Positions 2,766-34,520 of a stretch of DNA of 34,520 nucleotides are shown here, piece after piece. This DNA is from Deltaproteobacteria bacterium (GTDB lineage Bacteria > Myxococcota_A > UBA9160), in the NCBI GenBank assembly GCA_020849175.1, contig JADLGR010000154.1, forward strand, positions 1-34,520, given 5' to 3'. The notes under the pieces are model-generated. The model saw only the letters and a program-made list of their open reading frames with translations, was not told the DNA's origin and made no database searches. A program made the translations under genes and the position numbers. Every line of letters begins with the position of its first letter. The first letter of the stretch is position 1.

Positions 2766-3694
2766 TGTCGAAGGACTTCCTCGCGCTGTGCGACTGGTCG
2801 GCGGAAGATCTGCGAGCGATTCTCGCGCGGGCGCGAACGCTGAAGGATCTACAGCGACAGGGCCGTCGGCCTCGTACGCTCGAAGGCCGAACGCTCGCGA
2901 TGTACTTCGAGAAGCCGTCGCTGCGCACGCACGTCACCTTCGAGACGGCGATGACCCAGCTCGGCGGCCACGCGCTCCTGCTGCTCCCCGAGCAGATCGG
3001 CATCGGAACCCGCGAGACGCCGTCCGATGTCGCCCGCAACCTCTCGCGCTGGGTCGACGCGATCCTGGCGCGCACGTTCAGCCACGCGCTCGTCGAGGAG
3101 ATGGCGCAGGTCGCATCGATCCCGGTGATCAACGGCCTGACCGACCTGCTGCACCCGTGCCAGGCGATGGCGGACGTGCAGACGGTGGCGGAGCGGGCGG
3201 ACCTCGAGAAGGCGGTGATCGCGTACGTCGGCGACGGGAACAACGTCGCGAACTCGCTGCTCGAGGCGGCAGCCGTCCTCGGACTCACGCTGCGGCTGGC
3301 GACGCCGGCGAGCCATCGACCGGCGCTGCGCGTGAGGCGTCGCGCCGACGCGTGCGCTGCGGCGAGCGGTGCGCGCCTGTCGTGGAGCGAGGATCCCGTC
3401 GAGGCGGTGCAGGGCGCGGACTTCGTCTACACCGACGTGTGGACGAGCATGGGGCAGGAGGACGAGGCCGCAGAGCGACGGGCGCTGTTCGAGCACTACC
3501 AGGTGAACGCGCGGCTCATGAAGCACGCACCGCAGGCCTTCGTCCTCCACTGCCTGCCCGCGCATCGCGGCGAGGAGATCACCGACGAGGTGCTCGACGG
3601 GCCGCGCAGCGTCGTCCTCGACCAGGCCGAGAATCGCCTGCACGCGCAGAAGGCCGTCCTCGAGCGCGTCATCCTCGGGGCGCTGCCGGGGTAG
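2765..3694 (+). CDS. argF: Ornithine carbamoyltransferase
   Basis: Transfers the carbamoyl group from carbamoyl phosphate to ornithine to give citrulline; cytoplasmic. 309 residues. Seen motifs are KPSLRTH (residues 50-56) in place of the classical STRTR carbamoyl-phosphate loop, HPCQAMAD (130-137), and HCLPAHRGEE (262 onward), which carries the catalytic cysteine and ornithine-binding residues. The ATG overlaps the argB stop by one base. The loop keeps Ser, Arg and Thr but has Leu in second place and His in the last place (usually Thr and Arg); see findings. The HCLP motif favours ornithine over aspartate or acetylornithine as acceptor. argD, often between argB and argF in related clusters, is absent. 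Confidence 0.95.
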   Translation: MSKDFLALCDWSAEDLRAILARARTLKDLQRQGRRPRTLEGRTLAMYFEKPSLRTHVTFETAMTQLGGHALLLLPEQIGIGTRETPSDVARNLSRWVDAILARTFSHALVEEMAQVASIPVINGLTDLLHPCQAMADVQTVAERADLEKAVIAYVGDGNNVANSLLEAAAVLGLTLRLATPASHRPALRVRRRADACAAASGARLSWSEDPVEAVQGADFVYTDVWTSMGQEDEAAERRALFEHYQVNARLMKHAPQAFVLHCLPAHRGEEITDEVLDGPRSVVLDQAENRLHAQKAVLERVILGALPG

Positions 3695-3711
3695 CGGGGG
3701 CGCTCCGATTC

Positions 3712-3735
3712 CGGCTCCGGCGTTCACCGGAGCCG
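3712..3735 (+). terminator. Perfect 9-bp GC hairpin after argF
   Basis: CGGCTCCGG and CCGGAGCCG pair perfectly around a six-base loop (CGTTCA), 17 nt after the argF stop. It is the strongest inverted repeat in the 234-nt gap before the next gene. There is no T-run after it, so it may be a Rho-assisted terminator or an RNA 3'-end stabiliser rather than a classical intrinsic terminator. Nothing else is recognisable in this gap. Confidence 0.5.
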
Positions 3736-3928
3736 CGCGGCGCGTGGCGGGCCGCGCCGCAGGTGCCGCGACCGGCTGGCGCTCGCGTGCTGCGAAGCGC
3801 GGGCGAGTCGCAGATGCCGGAATCCTTCGCGAGAGCTGCGCACGAGCGAGGGGGCGGCCACACGGCTCAGCTTCCCCGCGCCGCCCGCCGATGGTGGAGC
3901 AGACGGGGCTTGCCCGGACGAGGCGTCG

Positions 3929-5131
3929 ATGGAGCTGCGATCAGGAAGCGACGAGGAGGGACGGGTACTGCGTCTCGTCGAGAGCTGCGGCGTGCCCTCG
4001 ATCCCGCTCTCGCCCGCGGAGGGCTACCTGCTCTCGCGGATCGACGGTCGAACGCCGTGGGGCGTCCTGCGGCAGATGGGTGGGCTGCCCGCGGCCGACG
4101 TCGATCTGTGCCTGCGCCGGTGGCTCGCGCAGGGGCTGCTCGAGGCCGCCGATGCCAGCGACGGCGCCAGCGGAGGGCCGCCGAGCGCAGACGACCTCCT
4201 CGATTCCTCGCTCGATCTCCCGGTCGAGGCGCAGCAGCGGATCCTCGCGTTCGAGGCCCGACTCGACCGCCCGTATCACGAGATCCTCGGTGTCTCGCGC
4301 GAGGCGGACGCGAAGATCGTGAAGCGTGCGTACTTCGAGCTCTCCAAGGAGTTCCATCCCGACCGCTACTTCCGGCGCGAGATCGGGCCGTATGCAGCCC
4401 GGCTCTCGCGCGTCTTCGCGCGCATCGCAGAGGCGTACGAGCTGCTGTCGGATCCGGCTGCTCGCGCCGAGATCGAGCGCGGTCTCGACCCGGCGCCGGC
4501 GCAGACGACGGACCGGGCGGAAGCCGCAGCGCCCGTGGCCGGGCTCGCGCAGAGCGCGAGCGCCGCACGCCGTGCACGCGCGGCGCTCCATCCGGGGCAA
4601 CTGCGTCGCCTCGCAGAACGCAAGGGACGATCCAGGCGTTTCTTCGAGGCGGGAATGGTGGCCTTCGAAGGCGGCCGCTGGCTCGAGGCCTCCGCGAGCG
4701 TTCGGCTCGCGATCGCGTTCGATCCGTCGAATCAGGCCTTCAAGGATGCGTTCGGTCCGGTCCAGCGAAAGGCCAGCGACGAGCGGGGCAAGCAGCTCGT
4801 GGAGCAGGCGGAGCGGGCGCTCGACCACAACGACTTCCGCGACGCACTGCGATCGTACGAGGAGTCCCTCGTCCACCGACCTCACGATCCGGGAGCCAAC
4901 TTCGAGGCGGCTCGCCTGCTCCTGCATTTCGGCGAGGACCTGAAGCGCGCGAAGGAATACGCCGCGCGCGCCTGCGAGCTGGTCCCCGACAGCGCCAGCC
5001 ACCGGCGACTGCTCGGCAAGGTCTATCGAGCCGCAGGGCTCGTGGCCAACGCGCGCCGCGAGCTCGAAGCGGCGCTTCGGATCGATCCGATGGACGGCGC
5101 AGCGCGCGCCGAGCTTCGGGCGCTCGCATGA
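3929..5131 (+). CDS. J-domain protein with N-terminal wHTH-like region and C-terminal TPRs
   Basis: 400 residues. Residues about 20-75 form a small helical domain ([20 protein letters not shown]...) of the kind found at the front of many deltaproteobacterial regulators and J proteins. A J domain spans about 112-180 ([20 protein letters not shown]), with the essential HPD triad at 143-145. Residues about 230-400 contain tetratricopeptide-like helical pairs. There is no Gly/Phe region and no zinc finger, so it is a class C J protein, not DnaJ itself. The HPD should stimulate Hsp70 ATPase, and the dnaK-like gene starts 28 nt downstream, so they are probably partners. The TPRs likely choose the client. 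The start has only a weak ribosome site; no better in-frame start was found. Confidence 0.88.
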
Positions 5132-5159: not shown

Positions 5160-6731
5160 ATGGGCCGCGTGATCGGCATCGACCTCGGTACCACCAACTC
5201 GTGCGTGGCCGTGATGGAAAGCGGCCAGCCGACGGTGCTGCCGAACGCGGGCGGCTACAAGACCACGCCGTCGATGGTCGCGCTCACGGCCGATGGCAAG
5301 CGGCTCGTGGGCCACCTCGCCAAACGCCAGGCGATCACCAACTCGCGCAACACGGTCCATGCCGCGAAACGTCTCATCGGCCGGCGATTCGACTCCGCCG
5401 AGACGCAGCAGATGATCGCGCTCGCTCCCTACGAGGTCGTACGAGGTCCGAACGACGACCCACGCATCAAGCTCGGCGAGAAGGTCTTCACGTGCCCCGA
5501 GATCGGCTCGATCATCCTTCGCGAGATGAAGCGCGTCGCCGAGGAGGCTCTCGGCGAGCCGGTGCGCGACGCCGTCATCACCGTCCCGGCCTACTTCAAC
5601 GACAGCCAGCGGCAGTGTACGAAGGACGCGGGTCGAATCGCCGGCCTCGAAGTCCTGCGGATCATCAACGAGCCGACGGCCGCCGCGCTCGCCTACGGGT
5701 TCGGCAAGCGCAAGGACGAGAAGATCGCGGTCTACGACCTGGGTGGCGGGACGTTCGATATCTCGATCCTCGAGCTGGGAAGCGGCGTCCTCGAGGTGCA
5801 CTCCACCGGAGGAAGTCCGTTCCTCGGTGGCGAGGACTTCGATCGCCGGATCGTCGCGAGCGTGATCGATCGCTATCAACAGGCCGAGGGGATCGATCTG
5901 CGGGGCGATCCGATGGCGCTCCAGCGCCTCAAGGACGCGGCAGAGAAGGCCAAGTGCGACCTCTCGGTCCGCGAGACCACCGAGATCAGTCTCCCCTTCA
6001 TTGCGAGCGACGCCTCGGGCCCGAAGCACCTCAACCTCGAGCTCACGCGCGTGGCCCTCGAGGCAATGGTCGACGACGTCGTTCGGCAGACCGTGAAGCT
6101 CGTCGAGCAATGCCTCGCGGATGCCGAGCTCCAGCCGGGCGACATCGATCAGGTGATCCTCGTCGGCGGCCAGACGCGCATGCCCCTGGTGCAGAACGCG
6201 GTGGCGGAGCTCTTCGGAAAGCGCCCGCACAAGGGCGTCAATCCCGACGAAGTCGTCGCGGTCGGAGCGGCGCTGCAGGGCGAGGCGCTGCTCACCGAGG
6301 ACAAGAGCCTGCTCCTGCTCGACGTGACGCCGCTCTCCCTCGGAATCGGGACGATGGGGGGGCACTTCGCGCGTCTCATCGACCGCAACACGACCGTCCC
6401 GGTTCGCAAGCAGCACGTGTTCACGACGACGCGCGACGGACAGTCGGCCGTCAAGATCCGCGTTCTCCAGGGAGAGAGCGAGACGGCGGCGGAAAACGAT
6501 CTTCTCGGCGAGTTCGTGCTCTCGGGAATTCGACCCGCACCCAAGGGCGAGCCCGCGATCGAGGTCTCGTTCGACATCGACGCCAACGGCATCGTGAGCG
6601 TCTCGGCGCGTGACACCGACACGGGCAAGGAGCAGTCGATCACCGTGAACGCCACCGGGACGCTCTCCGAGGAAGAGATCTCTCGCATCATCGAGGAGCA
6701 GGAGCTCTACGAGGTGCAGATCCGGAGCTGA
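5160..6731 (+). CDS. dnaK: Short DnaK/Hsp70 lacking the C-terminal lid
   Basis: 523 residues from the ATG at 5160, preceded by GGAGGGG. The nucleotide-binding domain is complete: [14 protein letters not shown] (residues 5-18), the conserved lysine/threonine loops, [15 protein letters not shown], and [10 protein letters not shown]. The interdomain linker [12 protein letters not shown] starts near 384, and a full beta substrate-binding domain follows. The protein then stops at [12 protein letters not shown], about where helix B of the lid would begin. E. coli DnaK has 638 residues. The lid and the acidic C-terminal tail are therefore missing, and the bases after the stop do not encode them in any frame I checked. 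No grpE or canonical dnaJ is nearby. It is probably a paralogue serving the neighbouring J-TPR protein, not the housekeeping DnaK. Confidence 0.93.
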
Positions 6732-28630: not shown

Positions 28631-29098
28631 ATGGTCGTGAAGAACCCCCCGAAGCTCGAGTTGCTGTGTGAGTACTACGCGACGCTGAAGCCTCCCGTCG
28701 TGGTCGGCAGCGGCCCGTACGGCATGCGTCAGATCTACGACGTGACGGGTGGCGAGGTCACGGGAGAGCGACTTCGCGGCCGCGTCCTGCCGAGCGGCGC
28801 CGACTGGATCCTCGTCGGAAGCGACGGCGTGGGCCGGCTCGACGTGCGCGCGGCGATCGAGACGCACGATGGTGCGAACCTCTACGTCTCGTACACGGGC
28901 GTCCTGCACATGACCGAGAAGGTGATGCAGGCGGTCTCCGGCGGAGCGAAGACCGAGTTCGGCGAGACGTACTTCTACGTGAGTCCGCGCTTCGAGACGG
29001 GTGATTCGCGGTACGCGTGGCTGAACGGCCTGTTCCTCGTGAGTCAGGGCCGTCTCGGGCCGCTGCGCGTCGAGTACCGCGTCTTCGAGGTCAGGTAG
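28631..29098 (+). CDS. DUF3237 (UPF0311) family protein
   Basis: 155 residues, normal for the family, with no signal peptide. It matches the DUF3237 pattern: an early GMRQIYDVTGGEVTGERLRG, then VLPSGADWILVGSDGVGRLDVRA, ETHDGANLYVSYTGV, YFYVSPRFET, and a final YAWLNGLFLVSQGRL. The predicted fold is a small all-beta barrel-like domain; the biochemical role of the family is not established. It follows sucD by 34 nt on the same strand. The ATG at 28631 sits directly after GAGGAA; the GTG two codons later would have better spacing. Its last 8 bases overlap the 3' end of the convergent lipoprotein gene. Confidence 0.88.
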   Translation: MVVKNPPKLELLCEYYATLKPPVVVGSGPYGMRQIYDVTGGEVTGERLRGRVLPSGADWILVGSDGVGRLDVRAAIETHDGANLYVSYTGVLHMTEKVMQAVSGGAKTEFGETYFYVSPRFETGDSRYAWLNGLFLVSQGRLGPLRVEYRVFEVR

Positions 29099-29651
29099 GT
29101 CCGTCTTCCCCGGACTCACCGCTCACGACCGTCTCGAGAACGATCACGTCGAAGCGTCCGGGAATCGCGAGTCCGCGCCGCAGCGTGAGCTCCGTGCCAG
29201 CGCGCAGCTCGACGACGAAGGGCACGGCGCGCAGGCCGCCGGCGCAGCGCTCGGGTGCGTCGACCCCGACCCGAACGCCACCCGCGCGCCGATGTTCGAA
29301 GCGCACCGTCTCGATGCGGGGCACCGGTGCGTCGCAGCGAAGGTCGGCGAGGAGCTCGCCACCGGTTGCCGACGGCGAGTTGCCGAAGTAGACCGTCTCG
29401 TGGCCCGCGTCGGTGACGTAGAGATCGAGATCTGCGTCGGCGCCGAACGCGAGCCGAACGACGAGCCCTCCGGTGCTCTCCAGCGCAGGAGCCGCCTCGA
29501 GCGCCCTTTCGAGCGCCAGGTACTGCGCGGCCGCTTCCTCCGCTGAGGGTCCACCGCCCGCGCACCCGAGGGCCCACACCCCGAGAGCGGCGCTGGTGAG
29601 GCAGATGCTTCGTCCGATACTCGACTTCCATGTGGCGGCTGTCCGAGACAA
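29091..29651 (-). CDS. Small predicted lipoprotein with a YfaP/DUF2135-like beta domain
   Basis: 186 residues from a TTG at 29651; no ATG is available before the signal sequence, and AAAGGA lies 10 nt upstream. The hydrophobic segment ends in WALGC, a lipobox with Cys30. The rest resembles the extracytoplasmic beta domain seen in DUF2135-like proteins: VVRLAFGADADLDLYVTD, ETVYFGN and GVRVGVDAPERC. Two cysteines (LRCDAP and ERCAGG) could form a disulfide. Function unknown. It is divergent from the heme/propeller gene; the 239-nt gap between them holds a -10-like element but no gene I can see. Confidence 0.72.
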   Translation of the reverse strand: MSRTAATWKSSIGRSICLTSAALGVWALGCAGGGPSAEEAAAQYLALERALEAAPALESTGGLVVRLAFGADADLDLYVTDAGHETVYFGNSPSATGGELLADLRCDAPVPRIETVRFEHRRAGGVRVGVDAPERCAGGLRAVPFVVELRAGTELTLRRGLAIPGRFDVIVLETVVSGESGEDGPT

Positions 29652-29890: not shown

Positions 29891-31696
29891 ATGCGCCCGC
29901 ACGTCGCTCTCGCTCTGGTCGCGTTCGCGGGCGCCTCGCTGGCGGCAGAAGGGGCGGGCGCGACCCAGATCACCGGCCGCGTTCGCGACGCGTCCGGTAG
30001 GCCGGTCGCCGGCACGATGGTGAGCTTCTCGCACGGGAGCCCGCGCCACGTCGTGACGGTTCTGACCGACGAGGCAGGCCGCTACCGCACACCGCCGCTC
30101 GACGGGCCCTCGCCGTGGTCCCTGCGCGTTCGCAAGCCGCTGTTTCGCGACGTCCAGCGCGAGGGCGTCATGCCCGCGGCGCAGGAACAGAGCGCTCTCG
30201 ACGTTACGCTCGAACGCGAGACCGACCCGGCCGAGATCGCGGCGCAGCTCCCGGCGAACCGCTGGTTCTCGCTCGTCCTCGAACGCATCCACGACGAAGC
30301 AGAGCGCGAGGAGCTCGTTCGGCAGTGTGCCTACTGCCATCAGCAGGGAAGCCGCTACACACGTCTTCCCCGCACGGAAGAGAACTGGCAGAAGGTTCTG
30401 GCGCTGATGGCGCGCATGGGCGGCATGATCGGCCCCGAGCTTCGCGCTGCGCTGCCCTCCCTGTTCAACGAGACCTACGATCCGAAGACGGCGGTGCCCG
30501 CTCTCGTGGCGCGTCTCGACGAGCCCGGCTTCGTTCCCGAGCCCGCGCCCGAAGCGCGACGCGCCGTGATCGAGGAGTGGGAGATGGGCATCGCGGCATC
30601 GATGCAGCACGACGTCGCCGTCCATCCCGATGGCTCGCTCTGGAGCGTCGACCAGCTCCAGGACCGCCTCACCCGTCTCGATCCGTCCGTCGCGGGAGGA
30701 GCCCGTGAGGTCTACGAGGTGCCGCGCGGCGATCTTCCCCTGGGTGGCTTCACAGGAGGGCGCGCGGTCCTTCCGCCGAATGCCAACGCGCACGTTGGGC
30801 CACACTCGCTGCAGATGGCGCCGGACGGAACGATCTGGCTGACGCTGTCCTTCGGCAATCAGATCGCCGGATTCGATCCGAAGACGAAGCAGTGGGAGAT
30901 ACACCCCCTCGACGAAGGGCTGTATCCGCACACGCTGCGCTTCGACAGCAGGGGACGCATCTGGTTCAGCGTCGCTGTATCGAATCATCTCGGCATGCTC
31001 GATCGCAAGACCGGTGAGGTGAAGACGATTCGCCTGCCCGCGGCATCGTGGAGTCAGGAGCTCGCTCTGCGAGCGCTCCCGGCGTTCTTCTGGCTCGCAC
31101 GGCACGTCGAGCTCGGCGAGCTGCCGGCCGGGGAGGGCATGAGCCTCCCGGTCCCCTACGGGGTCGACGTTGCGCCCGACGGCGGGGTCTGGTTCAGCCA
31201 GCTCAACCAGCACCGGATCGGACGCATCGACCCCGAGACGCTCGAGATCGACATGATCGACACGCCCTTCACCGGACCGCGGCGCCTGCGGTTCGATTCG
31301 AAGGGTCAGCTCTGGATTCCCGGATTCTCGTCGGACCTGATCGCGCGCTTCGACCCGAAGACGCGAGCATTCGAGAGCTGGCGGCTTCCGACCGTACCCG
31401 CAGGCAGCGAGACGCCGTACGCGCTCAACGTCGACCGTCGCACCGACATCGTCTGGATCTGCGGAACGGGAAGCGATTCCCTTCTGCGCTTCGATCCAGC
31501 GACGCAGACCTTCCTCACCCTTCCACTTCCGACGCGCGTCACCTTCACGCGCGAGATCGACTTCGACGACGAGGGCCGCGTCTGGACCTCGAACTCGAAC
31601 CTTCCGACGTGGCAGGTGGAGGGCGCCTATCCGCGGGTGATCCGGGTCGATTGGAAGCCGGACGCTGCGTCACCGGCGCGGGCCGCCGCGCAGTAG
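29891..31696 (+). CDS. Exported carboxypeptidase-regulatory / heme-c / Vgb-like propeller fusion
   Basis: 601 residues from the ATG at 29891, with GAGGAG 8 nt upstream and an immediate signal peptide (LALVAFAGASLAAEGAGA). Three parts are seen. Residues about 25-95 are a carboxypeptidase-regulatory-like beta domain (ITGRVRDASGRPVAGTMVSF, TDEAGRYRTPPL). Residues about 120-200 form a helical linker with CAYCH at 146-150, a single c-type heme motif. Residues about 225-590 are repeats of the virginiamycin-B-lyase/SMP-30 propeller kind (HDVAVHPDGSLWSVD, MAPDGTIWLTLSFGNQIAGFDP, LRFDSRGRIWFS, VDVAPDGGVWFSQLNQHRIGRIDP). It is periplasmic or secreted. Activity is unknown; electron transfer or oxidation of a substrate bound by the propeller is conceivable. 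True virginiamycin resistance is unlikely. Confidence 0.85.
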   Translation: MRPHVALALVAFAGASLAAEGAGATQITGRVRDASGRPVAGTMVSFSHGSPRHVVTVLTDEAGRYRTPPLDGPSPWSLRVRKPLFRDVQREGVMPAAQEQSALDVTLERETDPAEIAAQLPANRWFSLVLERIHDEAEREELVRQCAYCHQQGSRYTRLPRTEENWQKVLALMARMGGMIGPELRAALPSLFNETYDPKTAVPALVARLDEPGFVPEPAPEARRAVIEEWEMGIAASMQHDVAVHPDGSLWSVDQLQDRLTRLDPSVAGGAREVYEVPRGDLPLGGFTGGRAVLPPNANAHVGPHSLQMAPDGTIWLTLSFGNQIAGFDPKTKQWEIHPLDEGLYPHTLRFDSRGRIWFSVAVSNHLGMLDRKTGEVKTIRLPAASWSQELALRALPAFFWLARHVELGELPAGEGMSLPVPYGVDVAPDGGVWFSQLNQHRIGRIDPETLEIDMIDTPFTGPRRLRFDSKGQLWIPGFSSDLIARFDPKTRAFESWRLPTVPAGSETPYALNVDRRTDIVWICGTGSDSLLRFDPATQTFLTLPLPTRVTFTREIDFDDEGRVWTSNSNLPTWQVEGAYPRVIRVDWKPDAASPARAAAQ

Positions 31697-31707
31697 CCGG
31701 GGGGGGC

Positions 31708-31723
31708 TCGCGTGGACACGCGA
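31708..31723. repeat. Inverted repeat TCGCGTG-GA-CACGCGA
   Basis: Perfect 7-bp arms around GA, 12 nt after the stop of the propeller gene and over the start of the oxidoreductase remnant. It could be a short terminator-like hairpin, but the 2-nt loop is too tight for all seven pairs to form and no T-run follows. Confidence 0.3.
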
Positions 31724-31840
31724 ACGGGCTTCGCCGTCTGCATGCTCTGCGAGGCGATCTGCGGCCTCGCAGTCGAGCACGACGACGGTAGGGCCCCGAT
31801 CCGACGACTCGGCTGGACGGCGGGCGAGGCTGCGAGGTAG
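31712..31840 (+). pseudogene. Truncated molybdopterin oxidoreductase N-terminus (4Fe-4S motif remnant)
   Basis: A 42-residue frame from the GTG at 31712 to TAG at 31838-31840. Its first 27 residues read like the start of a molybdopterin oxidoreductase: CMLCEAICGLAVEHDDGR has C10-x2-C13-x3-C17 of the N-terminal 4Fe-4S domain, the LCEA-CGL context and the following DGR. The expected continuation with a fourth Cys (SRG-CPK type) is absent, and the frame ends after unrelated residues. The rest of the enzyme is not in the 12 bases before the next convergent gene or elsewhere in the window. I interpret it as a decayed or deletion-truncated gene. A chance match is possible but unlikely given the run of matching positions. 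Confidence 0.55.
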
Positions 31841-31852
31841 CGGGTACCGGGT

Positions 31853-33109
31853 CTAGATGCCGCCCCGCAGCACGGTCGCGACGTCCATCCGACGTACGCG
31901 GAGCGCGGGCAGGATCGAAGCCGCCGCGGCGACTGCCAGCAGCGCGCTCACGGTGATGCCGATGACGACCGGGGAGACGATGGGTGCCGGGAACATCCCC
32001 GGCGGCGGCAGGGTCGCGAGGGCGAGGCAGCCGCCGAGGCCGAGAACGACGCCGCCGAGCGCGGCGCCGCCCGCCACCACCAGTGCTTCGAGCGCCGTCT
32101 GGACGACGACCGTCCGCGTTCGTGCGCCGATCGCTCGCGAAACCGCGATCTCCATGCTGCGTTCGGCGAGCGTCGCGAGCTGATAGTTCGCGACGCCGAT
32201 CCCGCCGATCGCCAGCGTGAGTGATCCAGCGATCCCGATGAAGATCATGAACCCCGCATAGAACAGGTCGACCAGCCCCAGCATCTTCGACAGATCGAAG
32301 TGCTTCACGGCGTCGGGGTCCTCCGGATGGAAGCCGCAGAGCGGCGCGAGCGTTCGCACCGCGGCGCGGAACGCCTCCTCGCCGCCGATTCCTGCTCGCG
32401 GGAAGACGAGCAGGCGTGAGACCGACTCCTTCCGGAAGCCGAGGTGCGCCTCGGCCGTCGTGATCGGGACCAAGACGAGCCGGTTGTCCGGCCGGTTCGT
32501 GTTCGAATACTGGCGGCCCTTCTTGTCGGCCACGCCGATCACCTCGAACGGGCGTCCAGCGATGCGGATTCGCGCGCCGATCGCCGCCTCCGCGCTCCCG
32601 AAGAGATCGAGCGCGGCATCGAAGCCGAGCACCGCGAAGGAGCGTGCGTGCGCGACGTCGCTCTCGTCGAAGAATCGTCCGTGTCCGAGGCGGAACCTGC
32701 GCAGCTCGCCATAGCGTGCCTCGACACCCGCGAGGTCGTAGCGCCGGGCGCGTCCCTCTGGCGTGTCGACGAGGAATCGCTCCTCGCTGGTGTGCTCGGC
32801 GAGGACCGCGTCGAGCACCTCGTGGTTCTCGTGCTCGACGATGCGCGCCTGTTCGCGCTCGAAGCGGACGGGGACGCCTTTGCGAACGCCGTCGAAGCCC
32901 GACGACGTGAGGGCTGGGAACACGAAGAGCATGGGGCGCCCGAAGCTTCCGAGCTCGAGTTTCATGTAGTCCCGAAATCCGGTTCCCCACGCGAGCATGA
33001 GCACGATCGCCGCCGCACCCCACAGAACGCCAGCGGCGGAGGCCGCAACCCGTATCGGATGATCGGCCAGCGACTCCGCGATCTGCCGCAGGTGCTCGCG
33101 CCAGTCCAC
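31853..33109 (-). CDS. ABC transporter permease, MacB/FtsX type (second of two)
   Basis: 418 residues from a GTG at 33109, with GAGGAG upstream overlapping the end of the first permease gene. Topology by eye: a TM helix near 20-42 (AASAAGVLWGAAAIVLMLAWG), a large periplasmic core of about 230 residues (MacB-PCD-like, with GRPFEVIGVADKKG), then three TM helices in the FtsX domain (GFMIFIGIAGSLTLAIGGIGVANYQL, ALVVAGGAALGGVVLGLG, VIGITVSALLAVAAAASILPAL). The cytoplasmic loop ERSMEIAVSRAIGAR is the usual ATPase-contact motif. With the adjacent permease and ATPase it should form a lipoprotein-release or peptide/macrolide-type exporter; the substrate is unknown. No MacA-like adaptor is visible. Confidence 0.92.
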   Translation of the reverse strand: MDWREHLRQIAESLADHPIRVAASAAGVLWGAAAIVLMLAWGTGFRDYMKLELGSFGRPMLFVFPALTSSGFDGVRKGVPVRFEREQARIVEHENHEVLDAVLAEHTSEERFLVDTPEGRARRYDLAGVEARYGELRRFRLGHGRFFDESDVAHARSFAVLGFDAALDLFGSAEAAIGARIRIAGRPFEVIGVADKKGRQYSNTNRPDNRLVLVPITTAEAHLGFRKESVSRLLVFPRAGIGGEEAFRAAVRTLAPLCGFHPEDPDAVKHFDLSKMLGLVDLFYAGFMIFIGIAGSLTLAIGGIGVANYQLATLAERSMEIAVSRAIGARTRTVVVQTALEALVVAGGAALGGVVLGLGGCLALATLPPPGMFPAPIVSPVVIGITVSALLAVAAAASILPALRVRRMDVATVLRGGI

Positions 33110-33118
33110 GGCGGCTCC

Positions 33119-34381
33119 TCAGGTGACTCGCATCGCCGCTGCAGGATCGACCTGCGATGCGAGGCGAGCTGGAACGATCCCCGCCGCGAGCCCGATCGAG
33201 GTGAGGACGAAGAACGTCGTCACGAGAACGCTCGGCGAGACGGACGGAGACGGAAGCTCGGCGGGTAGAGGCAAGAGGCCCAGCAATCCGACGCCGGCGA
33301 GTCCGAGAGCAATTCCGAACATGCCTCCCGCGAGCACGACGACGACGGTCTCGACGAGCAGTTGCAGGACGAGGTCGCCACGCCGCGCGCCGCAGGCGCG
33401 GCGCATCGCAAGCTCCATCCGGCGCTCCTGGACCAGCGCGATCATGAGGTTTGCGACGCCGACCGCCGACATCATGAGCGTCACGGTGCCGATGAAGCCG
33501 AGCATGACCTGAAGACCGAACCCGATTCGCCGGGTGGGCTCCATCACCTCCGGAACGCTCATGCTCCGGATCGCCTCCGCGTCGGCCGCATCGACGTGAT
33601 GCGCGGGGCGCAGCGCGGCCATCACCTCCGCGCGGACGGCCGGCTCGTCCTCGAGACGGCGCGGGTCGAGGTACAGGCGCTCCAGATGGCGTCCGACGCC
33701 GAACAGGGCCCGCCCGGCCGACAGCGGGACGAAGACCATGTTGTCGTGGACGTCGTAGTTCGTCATGAGCTGGAAGCCCTTCTCCGCGAGGACACCCACC
33801 ACTTCGAACGGGACGCCGTCGAGCTGGACCACCCTTCCGAGGGGATCTTCGTCGCCGAAGAAGAGCGGCGCGAGGCTCGCTCCGATCACCGCGACGTGGC
33901 GCGCGAGGCGTTCGTCGTCGGCGTCGATGAAGCGGCCACGTTCGACGACGTGCGCCTGGATCGTGCCGATCTCCGGCGTGACTGCTGCGACGACACCCGA
34001 GCGCGTCTTGCGCGGGGTCTCGACCGCGATGCCATAGCGCTGGATCTCCGCGCCAACACGAGCTGCCGATGGCGTGCCGGCCTTCGCACGTGCGAGGTCG
34101 TCGACGTCGAGTCGGATCGGCCGCCCGGGCCGCGTGCCACCACTCTCGGTCGTCGTGTACTCGCCCCAGATCATGACGTACCGGTCGCCGGTCTTCGCGA
34201 CGCCCATGTCGAGGAACTGGTTGAAGCCCGCGCCGATCGAGAGCAGCAGCACCACCGCCGCCGCTCCCCAGACGAGCCCGATCAGGGTGAGCGCATGCCC
34301 ACGCCACTGCGCACGGAGCTGCGCGACGCCGTCTCCGACGAGCGGTCCCAGCAGGCGCAGCGTCCGAGTGACGTCAGGCAC
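33119..34381 (-). CDS. ABC transporter permease, MacB/FtsX type (first of two)
   Basis: 420 residues from the GTG at 34381, which overlaps the ATPase stop and has GAGGA 8 nt upstream. A GTG or ATG further up would extend into the ATPase. TM1 is near 30-52 (LTLIGLVWGAAAVVLLLSIGAGF), the periplasmic MacB-PCD core follows (VAVIGASLAPLFFGDEDPLGR, VPFEVVGVLAEKGF), then three TM helices (VMLGFIGTVTLMMSAVGVANLMI and two more). The loop QERRMELAMRRACGAR is the ATPase coupling motif. It differs clearly from the second permease, suggesting a heterodimer as in LolCE rather than a recent duplication. The second permease starts 9 nt downstream. Confidence 0.92.
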   Translation of the reverse strand: MPDVTRTLRLLGPLVGDGVAQLRAQWRGHALTLIGLVWGAAAVVLLLSIGAGFNQFLDMGVAKTGDRYVMIWGEYTTTESGGTRPGRPIRLDVDDLARAKAGTPSAARVGAEIQRYGIAVETPRKTRSGVVAAVTPEIGTIQAHVVERGRFIDADDERLARHVAVIGASLAPLFFGDEDPLGRVVQLDGVPFEVVGVLAEKGFQLMTNYDVHDNMVFVPLSAGRALFGVGRHLERLYLDPRRLEDEPAVRAEVMAALRPAHHVDAADAEAIRSMSVPEVMEPTRRIGFGLQVMLGFIGTVTLMMSAVGVANLMIALVQERRMELAMRRACGARRGDLVLQLLVETVVVVLAGGMFGIALGLAGVGLLGLLPLPAELPSPSVSPSVLVTTFFVLTSIGLAAGIVPARLASQVDPAAAMRVT

Positions 34382-34520
34382 GCCGTACGTCCTCGGCCAC
34401 ACGGCCGTCGCGGATGCGAACGACACGCTGCGCCTGCCCCGCGACCTCCTCGCTGTGCGTCACGACGACGAGCGTCCTTCCTTCGGCGTGCAGGTCGTGG
34501 AACATCGCCAGCACCTCGCG
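34374..34520 (-). CDS. ABC transporter ATPase, LolD/MacB type (3' end only)
   Basis: The last 48 residues and the stop of a gene that enters from beyond the window. The visible part includes the strand and H-loop histidine typical of LolD-like ATPases (GRTLVVVTHSEEVA) and the tail VVRIRDGRVAED. It overlaps the first permease by 8 nt, giving the order ATPase-permease-permease. Walker A and B are outside the window. Confidence 0.9.
   Translation of the reverse strand, partial: REVLAMFHDLHAEGRTLVVVTHSEEVAGQAQRVVRIRDGRVAEDVRRA

Follow-up and report, generated by a model that had tools for sequence, protein, structure and literature searches.

The described systems closest to the locus analysed here are the prokaryotic molybdopterin oxidoreductases (MoORs; DMSO reductase superfamily, PF04879 + PF00384 + PF01568) and the truncated pseudogenes of bacteria. 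The window, which is the whole of contig C154 (34,520 bases) of the draft genome G000 (3.95 Mb in 371 contigs), contains a 42-codon frame, hereafter the stub, that shares with MoORs the CxxCxxxCGL stretch, the start position and the DNA of the first ~28 codons, but lacks the fourth Cys, the Mo-cofactor domains and the remaining ~680 residues. Like truncated bacterial pseudogenes, it is a short 5' piece of a gene that is intact in relatives, with an abrupt loss of similarity and unrelated sequence behind it. It differs from them in nothing essential, although an intact allele at the same site was not found in the relatives inspected. We regard the finding as genuine, but as no more than an ordinary trace of gene decay and loss. 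A sequence-only reading had proposed a decapitated MoOR at a deletion or rearrangement junction. Our comparisons bear this out: the stub is very probably a non-functional gene remnant at such a junction, because its homology is clear, similarity stops abruptly and the gene body has no close counterpart in G000. No report on this locus was found in the literature searched.

The frame occupies positions 31712-31840 on the forward strand (GTG start at 31712, TAG ending at 31840) and carries CMLCEAICGLAVEHDDGR, exactly where that reading had placed it. It starts 15 bp past the stop of a beta-propeller gene. At its other end 12 bp separate it from the stop codon of a convergent ABC permease at 31853, the spacing given in that reading. 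The stub had also been called an excellent match to the MoOR 4Fe-4S motif, which overstates the profile result: PF04879 of Pfam scores 13.3 bits on the 42-mer (E 0.082, positions 6-26 of 55), under the cut-off of 22.7. A search of NCBIfam with the 42-mer gave no match, and a search of the PDB gave only a chance ankyrin match. Since these searches were negative or sub-threshold, pairwise homology was needed, and at that level the claim stands. We compared the stub with 79 genomes of the order (G000 among them), the named relatives being mostly uncultured Myxococcota/'Deltaproteobacteria' MAGs. The best match was in G014, from another genus and family of the order (75% over residues 1-28, E 4.3e-10), and codons 3-29 align to MoORs of G032 (59%), G007 (54%) and the same-genus G001 (59%). 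At E <= 1, 71 of the 79 genomes match, mostly weakly; at E <= 1e-3, ten genomes besides G000 do. Homologues in G014, G032, G007, G001, G070 and G078 scored 34-49 bits in a local test, whereas the best of 500 shuffled peptides reached 30.4 bits.

The alignment to G014, whose MoOR is cut by its contig end, is gapless from the start codon through 28 codons. Open frames of the homologous MoORs are 656-894 aa long, and both homologues scanned (G014 and G001) have PF04879 and PF00384 above cut-off. The DNA is conserved as well, with 87% identity to G014 over 31719-31787 (69 bp) and 89% to G001 over 31739-31784. By direct homology, the first ~28 codons are clearly assignable to the 5' end of a MoOR gene, and they keep the first three Cys of the Fe4S4 motif (codons 10, 13 and 17). 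Codons 10-27 differ from G014 by three synonymous and three non-synonymous codon changes; such good preservation fits a recent loss and would also fit selection.

Similarity is lost before the fourth Cys, in agreement with the sequence-only reading, and the frame has three Cys only, short of the four-Cys motif CxxCxxxC...C. The DNA match to G014 stops at 31787, and a profile built from the N-terminal DNA of 12 MoOR genes aligns over 31718-31800 with 42.7 bits. MoOR similarity in the DNA thus ends at 31787-31800, which places the break within codons 26-30, followed by 52-65 bp of unassigned DNA. The same profile had no match in 31788-31852 alone, and a search of 31788-31862 against the 79 genomes gave, apart from itself, nothing better than E 8e-4 (30 bases). 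Behind the stub there is neither PF00384 nor PF01568, nor any further MoOR frame before the permease stop, and a terminator and promoter scan of 31600-32000 found nothing. DNA homology of the permease (to G017) starts exactly at its stop codon, 31853, and both neighbours of the stub, the propeller gene and permease 1, are intact (Table 1).

Table 1. Features of the window and of three comparable MoOR remnants from elsewhere in the order (positions of the latter refer to their own loci)
Feature	Position	Strand	Description and basis
Small gene divergent from the propeller gene	29091-29579	-	Kept with the propeller in many relatives (neighbourhood comparison); without Pfam family
Propeller gene	29891-31696	+	CarboxypepD_reg, CxxCH, Vgb_lyase-type beta-propeller; start probably at 29891, not at 29630
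5' remnant of MoOR gene	31712-31795	+	GTG + ~28 codons; 75% aa to G014, 87% nt, DNA profile
Junction zone	31801-31852	.	Without detectable MoOR homology; holds the frame stop (31838-31840) and the 12 bp to the permease stop
MacB/FtsX permease 1	31853-33109	-	Convergent, complete at C-terminus; PF12704 + PF02687; orthologues in G017, G005, G057, G027 (54-57%)
MacB/FtsX permease 2	33119-34426	-	PF12704 + PF02687
ABC ATPase, C-terminal end	34374-34520	-	Open frame cut by the contig end; presumed family, from its motif
L168 (G074)	5824-6107		First 75 codons, 80% to G078, joined to last ~20 codons
L169 (G075)	3436-4370		Three separated pieces: 8-43, 151-276, 580-704
L173 (G056)	3373-3495		~30 codons, then another gene

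A second MoOR piece in the tail of the frame was considered and rejected, based on tests of residues 28-42 and of DNA 31788-31852 against four MoOR homologues. The tail residues resemble a downstream stretch of MoORs (RxPLRRVG) with p 0.50 for whole proteins and 0.04 for the N-terminal region only. Comparison of 31796-31852 with whole MoOR genes stayed mostly at shuffle level; the exceptions, L108 in forward orientation (reached by 2 of 100 shuffles) and L106 against the reverse complement (0 of 100), were taken as chance among eight tests. Colinear comparison of the tail DNA with MoORs gave p 0.11-0.48, against p 0.002 or below for a piece that is truly homologous. The tail may also have come from a MoOR C-terminus, for which C-termini were compared by eye. 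Given the p values for the tail residues, several small deletions may have acted in place of a single one, but these values do not demonstrate it.

We infer that a full MoOR once stood at this very place, that a deletion removed it and that its function was lost. The ancestor would have carried a full-length, formate-dehydrogenase-like/BisC-like MoOR (CxxCxxxCG...CPKG N-terminus) starting 15 bp past the propeller stop. A deletion or rearrangement would have taken all but the first ~28 codons, and the same event would have set the 3' end of the convergent MacB-type ABC operon directly behind the stub. The frame would now read 12-14 foreign codons to a chance stop.

With the body of the G001 MoOR as query, G000 yielded one match (E 2.2e-34), and the same query reached E 0 in G001, 6e-292 in G032, 1e-290 in G014 and 4e-271 in G007. 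The four PF04879 places in G000 that were compared are distant, the relatives inspected being ~27-38% identical to the G001 MoOR over long matches. The gene body thus appears to be gone from G000, with the reserve that ~5% of the genome may be missing; it could be unassembled because G000 is a draft (94.8% complete, 4.2% contaminated). A chimeric contig, in which the assembly falsely fused the beginning of an intact MoOR gene with an unrelated ABC operon at its 3' end, is improbable. The many contigs of the draft, the position of the ABC operon at a contig end and the finding that propeller, MoOR and permease are never neighbours in the relatives inspected would all suit such a chimera. However, there is no long repeat at the junction: among the matches listed, 31700-31880 shares at most 18 bp exactly with any other place in G000, which is short for an assembler join, and the severed MoOR body lies on no other G000 contig.

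The propeller was matched in 40 of 60 genomes, in some weakly, and 40 neighbourhoods were compared; gene borders in these relatives are approximate because they were called by our own codon-usage script. The closest propellers are those of G034 (genus g14; 80%) and G001 (76%), the common block consists of the propeller and the small divergent gene only, and the downstream side differs in these closest relatives. This divergent pair stays together across genera while its other surroundings change. A downstream gene was called in 37 neighbourhoods (three had none), giving 40 proteins, one each and two for L035, L036 and L052. The genes 3' of the propeller vary, with nine aldo/keto reductases, six PQQ propellers, five cytochromes c and two MoORs among these proteins. 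Redox genes (aldo/keto reductases, PQQ dehydrogenases and cytochromes c) often adjoin the propeller at loci L035-L071.

Neither of the two MoORs beside propellers, L036 and L052 (the latter judged from other comparisons), is of the stub's type, and the one at L052 is distant (36% to the G001 MoOR). The suggestion that the CxxCH propeller was once part of the same redox locus draws only circumstantial support from redox neighbours in relatives, two MoORs included, but this MoOR is never among them. We rejected the propeller and MoOR of G001 (L036:10497-13265) as the ancestral layout, as that MoOR is another enzyme, ethylbenzene-dehydrogenase-like (type II). Its closest solved structure is 2ivf_A (E 1.9e-203), and its counterpart in G000 (92%) lies on contig C95 without an adjoining propeller.

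Close orthologues of the permease operon (53-57%) occur in five genomes, with neither a MoOR nor a propeller near them in the five neighbourhoods compared. The orthologous MoOR of G001 is flanked by an acyltransferase gene on one side and, on the other, by a convergent HlyD-FtsX-ABC operon, an arrangement that resembles the window's. Synteny with the window was nevertheless rejected: the G000 version of that operon (78%) lies on a different contig, where no MoOR accompanies it and another gene follows, and the permease it encodes is distinct from that of the window. The sequence-only reading had looked to relatives for an intact MoOR flanked by this propeller and this ABC operon; inspection of propeller, permease and MoOR neighbourhoods revealed none. 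The ancestral layout is therefore unproven. Because all three kinds of neighbourhood differ in relatives, the surroundings of the stub are private to G000, and both of its sides may be breakpoints.

Both the propeller (closest to G034, L006/L035) and the stub (closest to G014, L105) are closer to genus g14, which belongs to another family, than to the same-genus G001. This may point to transfer or to mixing of bins, and some transfer would be possible since both are closest to that genus. It also enters into a distinctly improbable account in which only the 5' end of the MoOR ever arrived, through partial duplication or transfer, and no full gene stood at the site. The closeness of stub and propeller to g14 would suit this account, as would the finding that this MoOR adjoins this propeller in no relative; the start codon and G-rich stretch 15 bp past the propeller stop, however, resemble a native downstream gene, and G000 contains no donor copy.

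Similar remnants were sought in six genomes (G074, G075, G056, G026, G072 and G046) chosen from the listed matches with open frames of <120 aa, so that the survey gives a lower bound. Real MoOR stubs occur in at least three other genomes of the order among the matches listed (L168, L169 and L173; Table 1). The short match in G026 was rejected as chance and the short frame of G072 as cut by its contig end, and the status of the G046 match as a stub is unclear. As in the window, L168, L169 and L173 have lost the greater part of the gene but still contain an N-terminal Fe4S4 piece; C-terminal pieces survive as well at L168 and L169, whereas the window's stub keeps the 5' end only. Each of the three has its own deletion pattern.

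Because these remnants are similar, loss of MoOR paralogues that leaves the 5' end is not unique to the window, and the comparison suggests recurrent MoOR loss in the order. There is only a very slight chance that translation of the window's stub continues and that it persists as a small peptide of 42 aa with three cysteines, as one among several MoOR N-termini that were truncated independently and kept in the order. The open frame with its conserved start and Cys and the well-preserved codons 10-27 would be expected of such a peptide, and nothing else speaks for it. Against it stand the loss of the fourth Cys and of the cofactor domain, the lack of a convincing match to the tail in the 79 genomes, and the differing lengths and break points of the other short versions, as decay would give.

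By itself the finding matters little. With the non-functional remnant as the preferred reading, a 42-codon gene call can be a real fossil missed by profile libraries. MoOR paralogues are lost repeatedly by internal or 3' deletion in this lineage, where the 79 genomes contain four stubs or more, counting that of the window; this helps annotation and the assessment of redox capacity on the basis of draft genomes.

Alpha subunits of the ethylbenzene-dehydrogenase-like type (type II DMSO reductases) are found at 19 places in G000 and 12 in G001 (E <= 1e-60), some of which are pieces of one gene. The places in G000 are on contigs C95, C114, C228, C263 and others, with several clustered on C95 and C263. 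This expansion in G000 and G001 is worth a study of its own.
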